Source: an uncultured Pelagibacteraceae bacterium (GTDB lineage Bacteria; Pseudomonadota; Alphaproteobacteria; Pelagibacterales; Pelagibacteraceae). Taken from it: a stretch of 64,000 bases of DNA. Below are positions 5,695 to 11,662 of this stretch, piece after piece. The position numbers and the translations under genes are program-made. Location of the stretch: contig CACDII010000004.1 of the NCBI GenBank assembly GCA_902552985.1, forward strand, positions 66,540 to 130,539, written 5' to 3'. The notes beneath the pieces are model-generated. The model saw nothing but the letters and a program-made list of their open reading frames with translations. It did not search any database and had not been told where the DNA came from. Every line of letters starts with the position of its first letter. Position 1 is the stretch's first letter.

Positions 5695-6603
5695 TTACAT
5701 GGACAATTTATAAGCAAAGTTTTTACCAAGATTTTCTTTTAATTCATTGCAAAATCTTGCGGCCTCCGCACCATCAATAATTCGATGATCATATGACAAG
5801 GATAGGGGAAGAACCTTTCTATTTAGAAATTTGTTATCAACAAAAACTTGTTTATTATAACTTCTTCCTACACCTAAAATCGCAACTTCTGGATAATTAA
5901 TTATTGGAGTAAAAAAAGAACCACCTATACCTCCTAAGCTAGTAATTGTCATTGAACCACCAAAAAATTCTTTTTTATCTATTTTAAGTTTTCTACATTT
6001 GTCACTTATTTCTTTTAATTCTTCACTAATTTTATCAATTTTTTTTTTATTAACATTTCTTATTTTAGGAACCATGAGGCCATGTTCTGTATCTACAGCG
6101 ATACCTATATGAAAATATTTTTTATAAGTTATTTTTCCACTTTCAATATCATCGATGGAAGAATTGAAGCTTGGAAATTTTTTTAAAGCCTCGACAAGTG
6201 CTTTAATTATAAATACAAGTGGGGTAATCTTTTTTTTTTCACCAGTAAAATTATCGATAAGTGAAGTCCTAAAATCTTCCATTTCACTTATATCTGCTTC
6301 ATCATGATGAGTAACATGTGGAATGGTTGTCCATGAATTAGCAAGATGTGATGATGCGATTTTTTTAATTCTAGGCATTTCTTTAATTTCAATTTCTCCA
6401 AATTCTGAGTGTTCATATTCATTTTTTATTTTTCCTTTGAAACTACCAGCTTGATAATCTAATTTCTTGCTAATATACTTTTTTACATCTTCTTCAGTCA
6501 CTCTACCTTTTCTTTCTGATCCTTGTATTTCTGCAACATTTGCTCCTAATTCTCTTGCAAATTTTCTTACTTTTGGTGTTGCTAGAACTTTTTCTTCTGT
6601 CAT
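5695..6603 (-). CDS. aceF: Pyruvate dehydrogenase E2 (dihydrolipoamide acetyltransferase) lacking a lipoyl domain
   Basis: Core acetyltransferase of the pyruvate dehydrogenase complex. At 302 residues it is much shorter than usual E2 (400-630) because it starts directly with the peripheral subunit-binding domain (about residues 8-43: TPKVRKFARELGA, then KGRVTEEDV). After a linker comes the catalytic domain from about residue 75, ending with DHRIIDG (His about 273, the acetyltransferase catalytic His). No ESDKA-type lipoyl motif exists in this protein; the lipoyl domain is carried by the E1 gene upstream. Its ATG follows the E1 stop after one base, so the two are cotranscribed. No E3 gene is adjacent. 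Confidence 0.93.
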   Translation of the reverse strand: MTEEKVLATPKVRKFARELGANVAEIQGSERKGRVTEEDVKKYISKKLDYQAGSFKGKIKNEYEHSEFGEIEIKEMPRIKKIASSHLANSWTTIPHVTHHDEADISEMEDFRTSLIDNFTGEKKKITPLVFIIKALVEALKKFPSFNSSIDDIESGKITYKKYFHIGIAVDTEHGLMVPKIRNVNKKKIDKISEELKEISDKCRKLKIDKKEFFGGSMTITSLGGIGGSFFTPIINYPEVAILGVGRSYNKQVFVDNKFLNRKVLPLSLSYDHRIIDGAEAARFCNELKENLGKNFAYKLSM

Positions 6604-6604
6604 T

Positions 6605-9600
6605 TTATAATTTTGTTGGGATTGGTTTTTCTGGATTTATTTTATATTTTTTCATTGCATCCAAAGCTTGCTTTGAAGAAATTAATTGTTCCTTTGCTAA
6701 AACACTTAGAGAATATGTAACAATATGTTCTTTATCTACTTCAAAAAATTTTCTTAAATTCTTCCTTGTATCACTTCTTCCATATCCATCAGTTCCAAAG
6801 GAATAAAAACTTTTTGATGTAAAAGGTCTTATTTGATCTGAGTTCATTCTCATATAATCAGATGCAGCAACAACTGGTCCATCAGTTGATGATAGACATT
6901 TTTCTATATATGTTTTTTTTGGTTTTTTATCTGGATTGAGCAGATTGTATCTCTCAATCTCTAGTGCTTCTTTTCTTAGCTCATTAAAACTTGTAACACT
7001 CCAAATATTGCTATCTATTTCATACTCTTTTTCAAGAATTTCTGCGGCAGCAATCATTTCTCTTAAAATTGCTCCCGAACCAAGTAACTGAATTTTTGTT
7101 TTTTTAAATTTTTTATGTTCTTTAAATAAATACATTCCTTTTAATATTCCTTCTTCAACAGTTTTGTCGTTTGGCATTGCTGGGTGTGTGTAATTTTCAT
7201 TCATTGTAGTGATGTAATAAAAAATATTCTCCTGTTTTTCATACATTCTTCTTAAACCCTCACGAAATATTGTTGCTAGTTCATATGAAAATGTGGGATC
7301 ATACGATTTACAATTTGGAATAACTGATGACATTATATGACTATGCCCATCATTATGTTGTAATCCTTCTCCTGGTAAAGTTGTTCTTCCTGCTGTTGCA
7401 CCAATTAAAAAACCTCTAGTCTGATTATCACCAGCTGCCCAAGCTAAATCACCAACTCTTTGAAATCCAAACATTGAATAAAACAAATAAATTGGAATCA
7501 TTGAAATGTCATGATTTGTGTAAGAAGTACCCGCAGCAATCCAAGATGACATGGCACCAGCTTCTGTTAACCCTTCTTCTAAAACTTGTCCTTTAACATC
7601 TTCTCTATAAAAACTTAATTGCTCAGAATCTACTGGTTCATATTTTTGGCCTTCGTGAGCATAGATACCAATTTTTTGGAAAAAACCTTCCATACCAAAA
7701 GTTCTTGCCTCGTCAGGAATGATTGGGACTAAACGTGAAGCTACATTTTTATCTCGGAGTAAACTCGTTAACATTCTTACTAAAACCATTGTTGTAGACA
7801 TCTCTTTTTTTCCTGTAGACTCTTTCATAGCACTAAAAATATCTGACGGCGGAGTTTTAATAGCTTTTGCAAAAGAAGATCTTTCGGGTAAATTTCCACC
7901 TAGTTTTAACCTACATTCTTTTAAATATTTTATTTCTGGAGAGTTTTCCGAAGGTCTATAATATTCAACATTTTTTACCTGTTTGTCTGTTAAAGGTACA
8001 TCAAATCTATCTCTAAAATATAATAAATCTTCATCACCTAATTTTTTCTGTTGATGGGTAGTATTAATACTTTCACCTGATTTTCCCATTCCATATCCTT
8101 TAATAGTTTTCGCTAAAATAACTGTTGGTGTTCCCTTATTTTCCATAGCATTATGGTAAGCTGCGTAAACTTTGTGGGGATCATGTCCACCTCTGTTTAA
8201 TTTCCAAATATCTTTATCGGTCATTTGAGAGACTAAATTTAACAATTCTGGATACTTGCCAAAAAACTTTTCTCTCACATAGGCACCACTTTTGGCTTTA
8301 AAAGCTTGGTATTCTCCATCAACTGCTTCTCCCATTCTTTTTATCAAAAGACCTGTTTTATCTTTAGCTAATAATGGATCCCAGTATGATCCCCAAATAA
8401 CTTTCAATACATTCCAGCCTGCACCTCTAAATATCCCTTCCAATTCTTGAATTATCTTTCCGTTTCCTCTTACAGGACCATCCAGTCTTTGAAGATTGCA
8501 ATTTACTACGAAAATTAAATTATCTAACTTTTCTCTAGCGGCTAAACCAATTGCACCTAATGATTCTGGCTCATCAGCTTCTCCGTCTCCTAAGAAACAC
8601 CAAATTTTTCTTCCCTCATCCTTTAACAGACCTCTATTAATCAAATATTTGTTAAATCTTGCCTGATAAATTGACATTATTGGACCAAGTCCCATTGACA
8701 CAGTTGGAAACTGCCAAAACTTTGGCATCAACCAAGGATGAGGGTAAGAAGAAAGTCCTCCAGGATCAACTTCTTGTCTAAATTTATCTAGTTCTTTTGA
8801 AGTAATTCTTCCTTCAAGAAATGCTCTAGCATACATTCCAGGAGCACTATGTCCTTGAAAATAAATTAAATCTCCTCCAAATTTATTATTTTTAGCCCTC
8901 CAAAAATGATTCATCCCAACATCATAGAGAGTAGCTGCTGATGCAAATGTACCTATATGGCCACCAAGCTCTGGATTCTTTTTGTTTGCTCTGACCACCA
9001 TCGCTGCAGCATTCCATCTGATTAATGATCGTATTCGTCTCTCAATATTTTGATCTCCAGGTGATTTTTGTTCTTCTTCAGGAGATATTGAATTTATATA
9101 TGGTGTATTTCTTGATAAAATTAAATCTGAACCTTCTTTGTAAGAGTGCTCTATCAATTGTTTTATTAAAAATTGTGCTCTATTTTTTCCATCATTTTGC
9201 AGAACTGCTGAAAGCGACTCAAGCCACTCTTTTGTTTCGACAGGATCAATATCTCCATCTTTAGTAATCTCAATTTTACTAATTTCATCCTTAATTTTTT
9301 TATCTTTTTTCTCTACTACTTCCTTTTTTAATACTAAAGTTTTTTCTGCCTCATGAATGATTTTTTCTGTATCAGGTGGTAATTTTTCTTCAATAATTTT
9401 TTTTGATTTCTCTTTTGATTGAATTTGATTTGAATTCTCTTTTGATTGAATTTGACCTGTTAAAGTCAACAAGAGATCACCTTTGGAAACTTTATCTCCA
9501 ACTTTAACATTTACGTTTTCAACTATACCTTCATGGGTAGCCGGAACTTCAACACTAGATTTGTCACTTTCTAATGTAACAATAGAATCATTTTTTTTTA

Positions 9601-9685
9601 TTTTGTCTGCAACTTTTACTAGAACTTCTATAACTTCAACTTTTTCAAAATCTCCTATGTCGGGAACTAGTAATTCTTGTTTCAT
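6605..9685 (-). CDS. aceE: Lipoyl domain fused to homodimeric pyruvate dehydrogenase E1
   Basis: Thiamine-diphosphate enzyme that decarboxylates pyruvate and acetylates a lipoyl arm. Residues 1-77 form a complete lipoyl domain (LVPDIGDFEKVEV, lipoylated Lys42 in LESDKSSVEVPA). Residues ~78-140 are a charged linker with a repeated QIQSKE motif. From about 142 onwards is a full AceE-type E1 (DIDPVETKEWLESL, and GDGEADEPES with a downstream NCNLQRLDGPVRGNG as the ThDP-binding motif). Total length is 1026, equal to ordinary AceE (~885) plus the added domain. The E2 partner immediately downstream lacks a lipoyl domain, so this one must serve the complex. Confidence refers to the gene and its fusion structure. 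Confidence 0.95.
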   Translation of the reverse strand: MKQELLVPDIGDFEKVEVIEVLVKVADKIKKNDSIVTLESDKSSVEVPATHEGIVENVNVKVGDKVSKGDLLLTLTGQIQSKENSNQIQSKEKSKKIIEEKLPPDTEKIIHEAEKTLVLKKEVVEKKDKKIKDEISKIEITKDGDIDPVETKEWLESLSAVLQNDGKNRAQFLIKQLIEHSYKEGSDLILSRNTPYINSISPEEEQKSPGDQNIERRIRSLIRWNAAAMVVRANKKNPELGGHIGTFASAATLYDVGMNHFWRAKNNKFGGDLIYFQGHSAPGMYARAFLEGRITSKELDKFRQEVDPGGLSSYPHPWLMPKFWQFPTVSMGLGPIMSIYQARFNKYLINRGLLKDEGRKIWCFLGDGEADEPESLGAIGLAAREKLDNLIFVVNCNLQRLDGPVRGNGKIIQELEGIFRGAGWNVLKVIWGSYWDPLLAKDKTGLLIKRMGEAVDGEYQAFKAKSGAYVREKFFGKYPELLNLVSQMTDKDIWKLNRGGHDPHKVYAAYHNAMENKGTPTVILAKTIKGYGMGKSGESINTTHQQKKLGDEDLLYFRDRFDVPLTDKQVKNVEYYRPSENSPEIKYLKECRLKLGGNLPERSSFAKAIKTPPSDIFSAMKESTGKKEMSTTMVLVRMLTSLLRDKNVASRLVPIIPDEARTFGMEGFFQKIGIYAHEGQKYEPVDSEQLSFYREDVKGQVLEEGLTEAGAMSSWIAAGTSYTNHDISMIPIYLFYSMFGFQRVGDLAWAAGDNQTRGFLIGATAGRTTLPGEGLQHNDGHSHIMSSVIPNCKSYDPTFSYELATIFREGLRRMYEKQENIFYYITTMNENYTHPAMPNDKTVEEGILKGMYLFKEHKKFKKTKIQLLGSGAILREMIAAAEILEKEYEIDSNIWSVTSFNELRKEALEIERYNLLNPDKKPKKTYIEKCLSSTDGPVVAASDYMRMNSDQIRPFTSKSFYSFGTDGYGRSDTRKNLRKFFEVDKEHIVTYSLSVLAKEQLISSKQALDAMKKYKINPEKPIPTKL

Positions 9686-9781: not shown

Positions 9782-9898
9782 ATGATTAAAAGTATAGTAA
9801 AAAAAATATTAAATATCAGAAGTAAAGATGAACTGGATGCTAGATTCTGGATTCAAAAGTTATTATTAAAAAGAAATTTAAACTCTTTAAAATACTAA
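9782..9898 (+). CDS. Possible 38-residue basic peptide
   Basis: ATG at 9782 opens a 38-codon frame with Lys, Arg and Leu rich sequence ending ARFWIQKLLLKRNLNSLKY and TAA at 9896-9898. It fills the otherwise empty gap between the aceE start and the end of the thiolase gene, with whose stop it overlaps by four bases. There is no Shine-Dalgarno sequence and no similarity I recognise. The Trp, the mixed amphipathic character and the exact fit to the gap favour a real gene; the shortness argues against it. Confidence 0.35.
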   Translation: MIKSIVKKILNIRSKDELDARFWIQKLLLKRNLNSLKY

Positions 9899-11001
9899 TC
9901 AACTTCTATACACATTGCTATTCCCATTCCTCCACCAATACATAGCGTTGCAAGTCCTTTTTTTGCATTTTGTTTAATCATTTCATGAATTAATGTAACT
10001 AAAATTCTAGTTCCAGAAGCTCCAATTGGATGACCTAATGCAATGGCTCCTCCATTTACATTAATTTTTTCAGTTGGAATTTTTAACTCTTTAATTACGG
10101 CTAAGCTTTGAGCAGCAAATGCTTCGTTCGACTCTACTAAATCTAAATCTTTTATTGTCCACCCAGCTTTTTGTAGAGCTTTTTTTGATGCCGGAATAGG
10201 TCCTGATCCCATTAAAGTAGGATCAACACCACAAGTGGCCCAAGAAACAATTTTTGCTAAAGGTTTTAAACCTTGCTTATCAGATTCCTTCCTAGTCATT
10301 AGAAGTACAGCTGCCGCTCCATCATTAATTCCTGATGAATTTCCAGCTGTAACAGTTCCATTTTTTTTAAAAGCAGGTTTAAGTTCAGATAAATTCTGAA
10401 TTGTTACATTAGACCTAGGATGTTCATCTGGAAAATTAGATATTATTTCTTCTTTAAATTTTTTATTTTTTATAGCTTGTTGTGTTTTGTTTTGAGATTC
10501 AAATGCAAAATGATCTTGTTCTTTCCTGCTAATATTCCATTTTTCTGCAACATTTTCTGCTGTAATTCCCATATGATAATTGTTGTAAGCATCGATTAAA
10601 CCATCTTTTAACATTGCTTCTTCTGTAGAATTTGACATGCTTTCTTGTCCACCAGCTACAATTATCTTTGCATCATTTAATAATATTGATTGATAAGCAG
10701 CAGCTACAGATCTTAATCCTGACCCACAAACTTGATTTACCACATAGGCTGTCTTATCAATTGGTATATTTGCATTTATAGCAGACTGTCTTGCAGGATT
10801 TTGGCCTGTTAAGCCAGTTAAAACTTGTCCCATTATAACTTCATCAATTTTTTTTGGATCCAATTTTGTTCTATTTAAAGTTTCTTTAATTACTGATGCA
10901 CCTAACTCATGACTTTTATACTTTGAATAAGCACCATTTAATTTTCCAATTGATGTTCTTAAGGCAGAAACAAAAACTATATCTTTTAAATTTTTAGGCA
11001 T
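9895..11001 (-). CDS. Acetyl-CoA C-acetyltransferase (thiolase), shortened loop
   Basis: Condenses two acetyl-CoA to acetoacetyl-CoA or does the reverse. All catalytic residues are visible: Cys92 in NQVCGSG, His324 in GHPIGASG, Cys354 in TLCIGGGMG, and NEAFA. At 368 residues it is about 25 shorter than typical (~392). Most of the loss is between GGQESMS and KDGL, where only 8 residues remain against ~24 in the Zoogloea enzyme; a second gap is near the EIISNF region. The missing part is the loop domain segment linked with tetramerisation in the family. With acetoacetyl-CoA synthetase at 16375 it suggests acetoacetate or C4 metabolism. AtoB/PhaA-type; exact symbol not assignable. Confidence 0.93.
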   Translation of the reverse strand: MPKNLKDIVFVSALRTSIGKLNGAYSKYKSHELGASVIKETLNRTKLDPKKIDEVIMGQVLTGLTGQNPARQSAINANIPIDKTAYVVNQVCGSGLRSVAAAYQSILLNDAKIIVAGGQESMSNSTEEAMLKDGLIDAYNNYHMGITAENVAEKWNISRKEQDHFAFESQNKTQQAIKNKKFKEEIISNFPDEHPRSNVTIQNLSELKPAFKKNGTVTAGNSSGINDGAAAVLLMTRKESDKQGLKPLAKIVSWATCGVDPTLMGSGPIPASKKALQKAGWTIKDLDLVESNEAFAAQSLAVIKELKIPTEKINVNGGAIALGHPIGASGTRILVTLIHEMIKQNAKKGLATLCIGGGMGIAMCIEVD

Positions 11002-11072: not shown

Positions 11073-11149
11073 GCGCCTGTAGCTCAATTGGATAGAGCGC
11101 TTGGCTACGGACCAGGAGGTTCTGGGTTCGACTCCTAGCAGGCGCGCCA
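11073..11149 (+). tRNA. tRNA-Arg (anticodon ACG)
   Basis: Cloverleaf read directly: acceptor GCGCCTG pairs with CAGGCGC, D arm GCTC/GAGC, anticodon stem CTTGG/CCAGG enclosing loop CTACGGA with anticodon ACG (34 read as inosine, decoding CGN), and T arm CTGGG-TTCGACT-CCTAG. Discriminator G and CCA are encoded. Confidence 0.98.
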
Positions 11150-11254: not shown

Positions 11255-11662
11255 ATGAATAGAAAGTTTCAACAAATCAGCCTCAAATCAGGCTTTATGA
11301 AACATAATGGAGGTTTGCTTTTTCGTAAAATTTCAAAAACTAAATTTGAATTTAAAGCCAAAATTAAAAAAAATCATCTTAATAGAGCAGGAATTACGCA
11401 TGGCGGATTCATCGCTTCAATTATTGATGCTGGAGGAGGAACATCAGCGCATAGAGTTTCGGCTGGTAAAGTGTGTGTAACTATTTCGTTAGACATAAAA
11501 TTTATTGATGGAACAAACTTAGGAGATGAAATTGTCGGAAAAGTTATTATTCAAAAAGTAACAAATTCTTTAGTTTTTTTAGAATGTAAACTAAAATGTA
11601 ATAAAAAAATTATTGCTTCAGCTTCCGGTGTTTGGAAAAAAATTAATAGAAAACTTATTTAA
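11255..11662 (+). CDS. PaaI-type hotdog thioesterase
   Basis: Predicted acyl-CoA thioesterase of 135 residues with a single hotdog fold. The diagnostic segment is HLNRAGITHGGFIASIIDAGGG, matching the N-x-G-x-x-HGG-x-x-x-x-x-x-D pattern of the PaaI/ACOT13 family, in which the Asp and HGG form the active site. The C-terminal strand region (VFLECKLKCNKKIIASASGVWKK) is typical. The acyl substrate is unknown. Its end overlaps the convergent TRAP permease gene by four bases. Confidence 0.85.
   Translation: MNRKFQQISLKSGFMKHNGGLLFRKISKTKFEFKAKIKKNHLNRAGITHGGFIASIIDAGGGTSAHRVSAGKVCVTISLDIKFIDGTNLGDEIVGKVIIQKVTNSLVFLECKLKCNKKIIASASGVWKKINRKLI

Follow-up and report, generated by a model that had tools for sequence, protein, structure and literature searches.

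How does a pyruvate dehydrogenase (PDH) complex work when its E2 subunit has no lipoyl domain? The question is raised by a 64,000-nucleotide stretch of DNA (hereafter the window; contig CACDII010000004.1 of assembly GCA_902552985.1, positions 66,540 to 130,539) from an uncultured member of the Pelagibacteraceae, or SAR11, a very abundant marine group. Two adjacent genes of the window encode a homodimeric-type E1 (AceE) that begins with a lipoyl domain and an E2 that has none. A first-pass annotation had proposed that the domain moved from E2 to E1 and that the lipoyl arm must then work from E1. Active-site coupling in 2-oxoacid dehydrogenases usually depends on lipoyl domains carried by E2 (available part of PMC6270654). 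We consider it very probable that the lipoyl swinging arm of this PDH is part of E1, that it was added in the ancestor of the Pelagibacteraceae, and that the domain of E2 was lost repeatedly afterwards; in some SAR11, including the window organism, the E1 arm seems to be the only lipoyl arm left to PDH.

The E1 gene (6605..9685, minus strand, as are all E1 and E2 features below) starts with ATG and encodes 1026 amino acids in one open reading frame (ORF). Residues 4-75 (9461..9676) match the lipoyl model PF00364 with E = 2.4e-18 and 66.2 bits (cut-off 22.1), and are followed by Transketolase_N, PDH_E1_M and TK_C domains. The core, residues 144-1026 (6608..9256), is AceE of the homodimeric type: residues 144-1024 match TIGR00759 over its full length (model positions 4-883 of 885) at 1411.2 bits, above the curated cut-off of 859.9, the competing model TIGR03186 stays below its own cut-off, and residues 144-1023 align with the whole of E. 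coli AceE (1l8a), colinearly and without large gaps. The N-terminus combines a lipoyl fold with the conserved lysine. Lys42 (codon 9560-9562) is the predicted lipoyl residue, invariant together with its neighbours (residues 39-46) in 24 aligned E1 lipoyl domains, and an AlphaFold2 model of residues 1-80 (mean predicted local distance difference test score, pLDDT, of 87.5) matches the solved lipoyl domains of Neisseria P64K (1gjx, 45% identity), the top fold match, and the innermost lipoyl domain of E. coli E2p (1qjo, 49% identity). By sequence, too, its closest PDB entries are lipoyl domains of PDH subunits. The gap between the PF00364 and TIGR00759 matches is a charged linker (residues 76-143; 9257..9460) containing a conserved, helix-like motif at residues 106-114 (9344..9370), where a low-confidence model has a helix at 104-115. 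Residues 144-185 (9131..9256), at the start of the core, correspond to the part of E. coli AceE by which it docks on the subunit-binding domain of E2, the match being to the 49-residue AceE chain 9h1n_C. The annotated reading of E1, as beginning with a complete lipoyl domain (Lys42) and a charged linker, is borne out.

E2 is a dihydrolipoamide acetyltransferase of 302 amino acids (5695..6603), its ATG separated from the E1 stop codon by one base. It opens with a peripheral subunit-binding domain at residues 6-41 (6481..6588; PF02817, with PDB matches 9h1n_A, 8oqj_A and 4qoy_E), followed by the catalytic domain at residues 72-292 (5728..6390; PF00198), which aligns with the E. coli E2p core (7b9k/4n72) and has its DHRxxDG motif from residue 272. 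PF00364 has no match in these 302 residues, and TIGR01348 matches at model positions 281-581 of 587 only, its 335.6 bits lying below the cut-off of 552.1; the protein has the subunit-binding and catalytic domains of AceF/E2p in the expected order and lacks the N-terminal lipoyl domain, of which such proteins have at least one. E2 residues 5-48 and E1 residues 144-185 match chains of a single PDB entry, 9h1n. The annotation was right that E2 begins at its subunit-binding domain, and the pair has the make-up of a PDH with a displaced lipoyl domain, none on E2 and one on another subunit.

A second, complete E2 elsewhere in the genome would undercut this reading. The window assembly, whose nearest named relatives are uncultured Pelagibacteraceae, comprises 1.03 Mb in 23 contigs and is 85.9% complete. 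It contains two PF00364 domains, that of E1 and one in a 121-aa ORF which we take to be the biotin carboxyl carrier protein (BCCP), and a single PF00198 domain, that of the window E2, so that no second E2 is seen at this level of completeness. The lipoate gene lipA is present; within the same 85.9% the sucA model has no match and the lpd model nothing above cut-off. We take the sucAB-lpd cluster to be absent, as is likely, from the assembly rather than from the organism, because a relative with a lipoyl-free E2 (L209) has it, and this would explain the lack of SucB. There the genes form one cluster, sucC-sucD-sucA-sucB-lpd, in which the SucB ORF alone has a lipoyl match and the 466-aa lpd product has none; the gene names are our readings of the translations, that of SucB being also based on domain search.

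For relatives, every PF00364 match was listed in 18 genomes with a lipoyl-free E2, and the ORFs were assigned by length. Besides E1 (or the split lipoyl ORF of G185), a BCCP-size ORF (119-151 aa) was found in 18 of 18 and a SucB-size ORF (436-454 aa) in 16, an identity borne out by domain search in four relatives (L209-L212). The three exceptions are G176, which has no SucB-size match, G193, where a 79-aa ORF with a partial match takes its place, and G146, with an extra weak match of 28 positions (E = 1.2e-4) in a 447-aa ORF. With these exceptions, the 18-genome census gives no sign of a spare E2 or of a lipoyl domain on E3, and we rejected a shift of the domain to E3 in this lineage on the same grounds. 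The possibility of a second complete E2, which the annotation had named as decisive against itself, was not borne out: in 16 of 18 relatives the only full match outside the E1 and BCCP-size ORFs is of SucB size, and the incomplete genome of the window shows no second E2. In contrast, among 20 genomes with a lipoyl-bearing E2 (from a genus sample of 59), PF00364 matches number four in 16, five in two, three in one and two in one.

To what extent is this arrangement shared? We assembled 151 loci in which E2 lies next to E1: that of the window, 80 named nearest-relative loci, 30 from a sample of the order and 40 chosen for spread. These are not independent, the window locus being present twice (L004) and 12 E1 cores repeating another, and the nearest-relative and order-sample loci lean towards the kin of the window. 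E1 carries at least one lipoyl domain in the same frame as AceE in all 151, single-contig genomes included. E2 is lipoyl-free in 60, and in the other 91 it has one or two lipoyl domains; counted as E1/E2 lipoyl domains, the combinations are 1/1 in 83 loci, 1/0 in 60, 2/1 in four, 1/2 in three and 2/2 in one, and after reduction at 96% identity to 63 loci they are 1/1 in 30, 1/0 in 27, 2/1 in two, 1/2 in three and 2/2 in one. No E2 frame is cut at its 5' end and eight are cut at the 3' end. A lipoyl-free E2 occurs in 42 of the 80 nearest-relative loci, 12 of the 30 order-sample loci and five of the 40 chosen for spread, and because of this last figure we take it that probably only a minority of the family has this state. 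All 156 lipoyl domains on E1 keep the lysine within its DK motif, compared with 91 of 95 on E2. Two tandem lipoyl domains were observed on E1 in L144, L145, L149, L150 and L151, which belong to genera g2 and g4.

Beyond the family, we sampled 385 genomes of Alphaproteobacteria and 398 of Pseudomonadota. Among the matches listed from these, E1 matches starting near residue 1 come from Pelagibacteraceae only, and AceE-core matches from outside the family start only beyond the lipoyl domain, at query residue 106 or further on. Eight AceE frames that extend far upstream (L191-L198) have no lipoyl match in the E1 frame, and the second family of the order has weak E1 matches at most, the best among those listed having E = 3e-6. 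Within the family, a late-starting E1 match in G156 (L216) proved to be cut by a contig end. Nine members from the order sample (G040, G076, G105, G142, G154, G165, G173, G177 and G183), at an estimated 90-97% completeness, have weak E1 matches, none stronger than E = 1e-10, and one PF00198 match each; aceE and aceF seem to be absent together from these genomes.

The same loci bear on how the arrangement arose. On the E1-core tree (63 rows and five outgroup rows) the lipoyl-free state of E2 requires eight changes, at least four of them forced by starred branches, and a single clade for all lipoyl-free rows is rejected by the approximately unbiased (AU) test with p = 7e-7. The E2 tree, from which two rows truncated at contig ends were excluded to leave 61, also requires eight changes, at least five of them forced. 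The E2 is lipoyl-bearing in all six rows of the basal genera and in all five outgroup loci, and the direction of change is taken for this reason to be loss from E2. Trees and statistics support the repeated losses and the association with arm length described below. We read the history as an addition of the lipoyl domain to E1 followed by repeated loss from E2, and we rejected a single move from E2 to E1, since both trees and the rejected single clade favour this succession. The annotation's simple move does not hold: the E1 domain, present in every locus, stands mostly beside a lipoyl-bearing E2. Four basal loci (L146-L149) have a second lipoyl-like domain on E2 that lacks the lysine and lies on long branches, an apparent intermediate in domain decay. 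In a lipoyl tree of 87 rows and 73 columns, the E1 and E2 lipoyl domains of the Pelagibacteraceae join (83/99, not starred), which suggests that the E1 domain was copied within the operon, 73 columns being too few for more.

Is the E1 arm itself altered where E2 is stripped? Taken as the distance between the lipoyl lysine and a conserved landmark in the core, the arm averages 100.8 residues with a lipoyl-free E2 (27 rows) compared with 93.4 with a lipoyl-bearing one (36 rows). Corrected for kinship by phylogenetic generalized least squares (PGLS), it is longer by 8.2 +/- 1.6 residues with a lipoyl-free E2 (p = 3e-6), and by 8.4 +/- 2.1 (p = 1.6e-4) from another landmark, p values that flatter because the data used for the test are those in which the trend had first been spotted by eye. 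Omitting the 13 rows that belong to genera g2-g6 gives +8.7 (50 rows), and omitting the window's clade as well gives +9.0 (38 rows); the window's own lineage has one of the longest arms. The linker motif occurs in 134 of 151 E1 linkers, in none of the 151 E1 cores and in none of 91 E2 linkers, and is absent in loci of genera g2, g5, g6 and part of g4; standing mid-arm, it may be an extra docking point. The additional residues precede this motif in most motif-bearing rows with a lipoyl-free E2 and follow it in L106, L172 and L181, and because they sit at different places relative to the motif they suggest separate lengthenings in different lineages.

If these observations are brought together, the complex could work as follows. 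The lipoyl domain, predicted to be lipoylated at Lys42, would hang on a charged linker of about 70 residues fused directly ahead of the E1 segment that matches the E. coli docking stretch. E1 would dock on the subunit-binding domain of the small E2, in the way that the N-terminal region of E. coli AceE binds the E2 subunit-binding domain (available part of PMC6270654). We place the arm between E1 and the core because it is fused onto the very segment expected to dock on E2. The arm would be reductively acetylated in an active site of E1, that of its own chain or of a neighbour, would pass its acetyl group on to the catalytic core of E2 and would be reoxidised by an E3 held in common, the Lpd whose gene adjoins sucAB in a relative; a linker of this length could bring it to the active site of E1, to the core of E2 and to an E3 seated on an adjacent subunit-binding domain. 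Historically, the domain would have joined E1 in the ancestor of the Pelagibacteraceae and made the E2 domain dispensable, and E2 would then have lost it several times, including in the lineage of the window. The architecture and its conservation are read from the sequences themselves; we infer lipoylation, docking, shuttling and a compensatory meaning of arm length. That the arm must work from E1 is the part of the annotation that stands as the best reading, having survived both objections it had raised against itself.

Several observations weigh against this account or parts of it. The trees of E1 and E2 disagree in part, in that the window's E1-tree clade breaks up in the E2 tree, and the number of losses is therefore uncertain; an exchange of operon parts could alter the count. 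Apart from its flattered p values, the arm-length trend has exceptions in both directions: L090, L095 and L075 have a lipoyl-free E2 yet no lengthened arm, and L025, L099, L142, L168 and L182 have a long arm beside a lipoyl-bearing E2. In G185 (L214), a genome outside the 151 loci and the second with a late-starting E1 match, a frame break in the E1 linker leaves the lipoyl and AceE parts in different frames beside a lipoyl-free E2, the result of either a sequencing error or a split gene. The window assembly shows no sucA, sucB or lpd, and the E3 of the window organism is not seen in it. Finally, the full-length E1 model is poor, with a mean pLDDT of 51.1.

Could the lipoyl-free E2 instead borrow, in trans, the lipoyl domain of SucB, the E2 of 2-oxoglutarate dehydrogenase, the E1 domain being no working arm? 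The means are at hand, in that relatives with a lipoyl-free E2 possess a lipoyl-bearing SucB, identified by domain search in four and by ORF size in 16 of 18, and the one lpd beside sucAB in L209 suggests that E3 is shared. However, borrowing does not account for an E1 lipoyl domain and lysine kept in all 151 loci while those of E2 were lost repeatedly, it conflicts with the preference of E1p for the lipoyl domains of its own complex, as known in E. coli, and G176 combines a lipoyl-free E2 with the lack of a SucB-size lipoyl match, in an incomplete assembly. We regard it as decidedly unlikely. The E1 domain might alternatively be a structural or docking module, or carry biotin or nothing, in a lineage whose PDH is weak or dead. 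Unmodified domains can persist, as the lysine-free second E2 domains of L146-L149 attest, but the lysine of the E1 domain and its neighbours are invariant, its best PDB sequence matches are the lipoyl domains of PDH, and the catalytic regions of AceE and E2 align end to end with those of E. coli, so that we give this explanation very little credence.

There is finally the suspicion, voiced by the annotation, that the fusion reflects an assembly error, a chimera of aceF and aceE fragments. An assembly in 23 contigs is fragmented enough to invite it. Against this, all 151 loci have the fusion, some of them in single-contig genomes, and conservation of the linker motif and of the landmarks extends across the junction; we consider the chance of an artefact negligible and set assembly error aside on the count of loci. 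The E1-borne arm remains the reading that we prefer.

Some members of the order also have a second, lipoyl-free AceE. It was observed in L199, L200 and L201, is 51-55% identical and has no E2 match beside it; in L199 it adjoins ORFs that we read by eye as TRAP transporter genes. A strong match to this paralogue occurs in 18 of 197 genomes of the order. The seven such genomes with a known E2 state (G134, G126, G022, G166, G001, G097 and G158) all have a lipoyl-bearing E2, and none of 19 genomes with a lipoyl-free E2 (that of the window and the 18 of the census) is among those with a strong match. The idea that this orphan AceE is the partner of the lipoyl-free E2 was set aside, and the distribution, being confounded by kinship, was not used. 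In the window itself, the ORF after E2 is transporter-like and not lpd. On the other side of the pair, a tRNA-Arg(acg) gene lies at 11073-11149 on the plus strand, between ORF 9895-11001, by eye presumably a thiolase, and ORF 11255-11662, presumably thioesterase-like.

A displaced lipoyl domain is known on other subunits, and its location on a homodimeric E1 is what appears to be new. The E3 of Neisseria, P64K, has an extra lipoyl domain off E2, and it is this domain (1gjx) that the window E1 domain resembles most in fold. The E1 of Sinorhizobium also bears a lipoyl domain, as the annotation had noted; the E2 of Zymomonas and the AceF of Corynebacterium glutamicum keep their own. In seven AceE-type operons of other Pseudomonadota (L185-L189, L191 and L196), the ORF after E2, presumably lpd, begins with one or two lipoyl domains; unlike in the window, the E2 ORF there has one or two lipoyl domains and E1 none. 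The E. coli AceE-AceF-Lpd complex shares with the window the AceE family, the E2p core with its subunit-binding domain and the conserved docking segment, but its E2 carries lipoyl domains, as stated in the available part of PMC6270654, and its solved AceE has none, whereas the window has one on E1 and none on E2. The available part of PMC7873978 covers two further cases. In Mycoplasma hyopneumoniae, for which it cites Matic 2003, the PDH lipoyl domain is reported to be on PdhD (E3), which is lipoylated, so that the arm is on E3 rather than E1, and a lipoyl-free E2 is only implied there; Zymomonas mobilis resembles the window in having a lipoyl domain fused to an E1 subunit, called E1 alpha in the text and E1-beta in a title it cites, but according to that title this E1 is alpha2beta2, unrelated to AceE. 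The hybrid of PDH and 2-oxoglutarate dehydrogenase in C. glutamicum is alike in its redistributed functions, one E2 serving two E1s, and unlike in that an E2 catalytic domain is on E1o rather than a lipoyl domain on E1p (available part of PMC7568260). A full-text literature search, outside which most subscription papers lie, gave no apparent description of a lipoyl-AceE or of a SAR11 or Pelagibacter PDH containing one. The annotation's failure to recall a case for AceE is to that extent upheld, with the qualification that displaced lipoyl domains as such are familiar.

Members of SAR11 carry a lipoyl domain on a homodimeric E1, and several of their lineages have dropped it from E2. For annotation this means that in SAR11 a short AceF need not be a truncated one, and lipoylation maps of SAR11 should include AceE. 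We are drawn, more tentatively and at somewhat less than even confidence, to the wider proposition that the E1 arm is a principal working arm in the Pelagibacteraceae, E2 having been stripped repeatedly and independently, and each stripping tending to go with a longer E1 arm, lengthened at different places. If true, this would be an inverted complex with its swinging arms on the E1 dimers and not on the core, the conserved helix of the arm perhaps providing an extra docking point. On that proposition the family would also be an experiment replicated by nature on how active-site coupling depends on where the arm sits and how long it is. Since lipoyl-bearing and lipoyl-free E2 occur in one family, the effects of the position, number and length of arms can be tested with close homologues.

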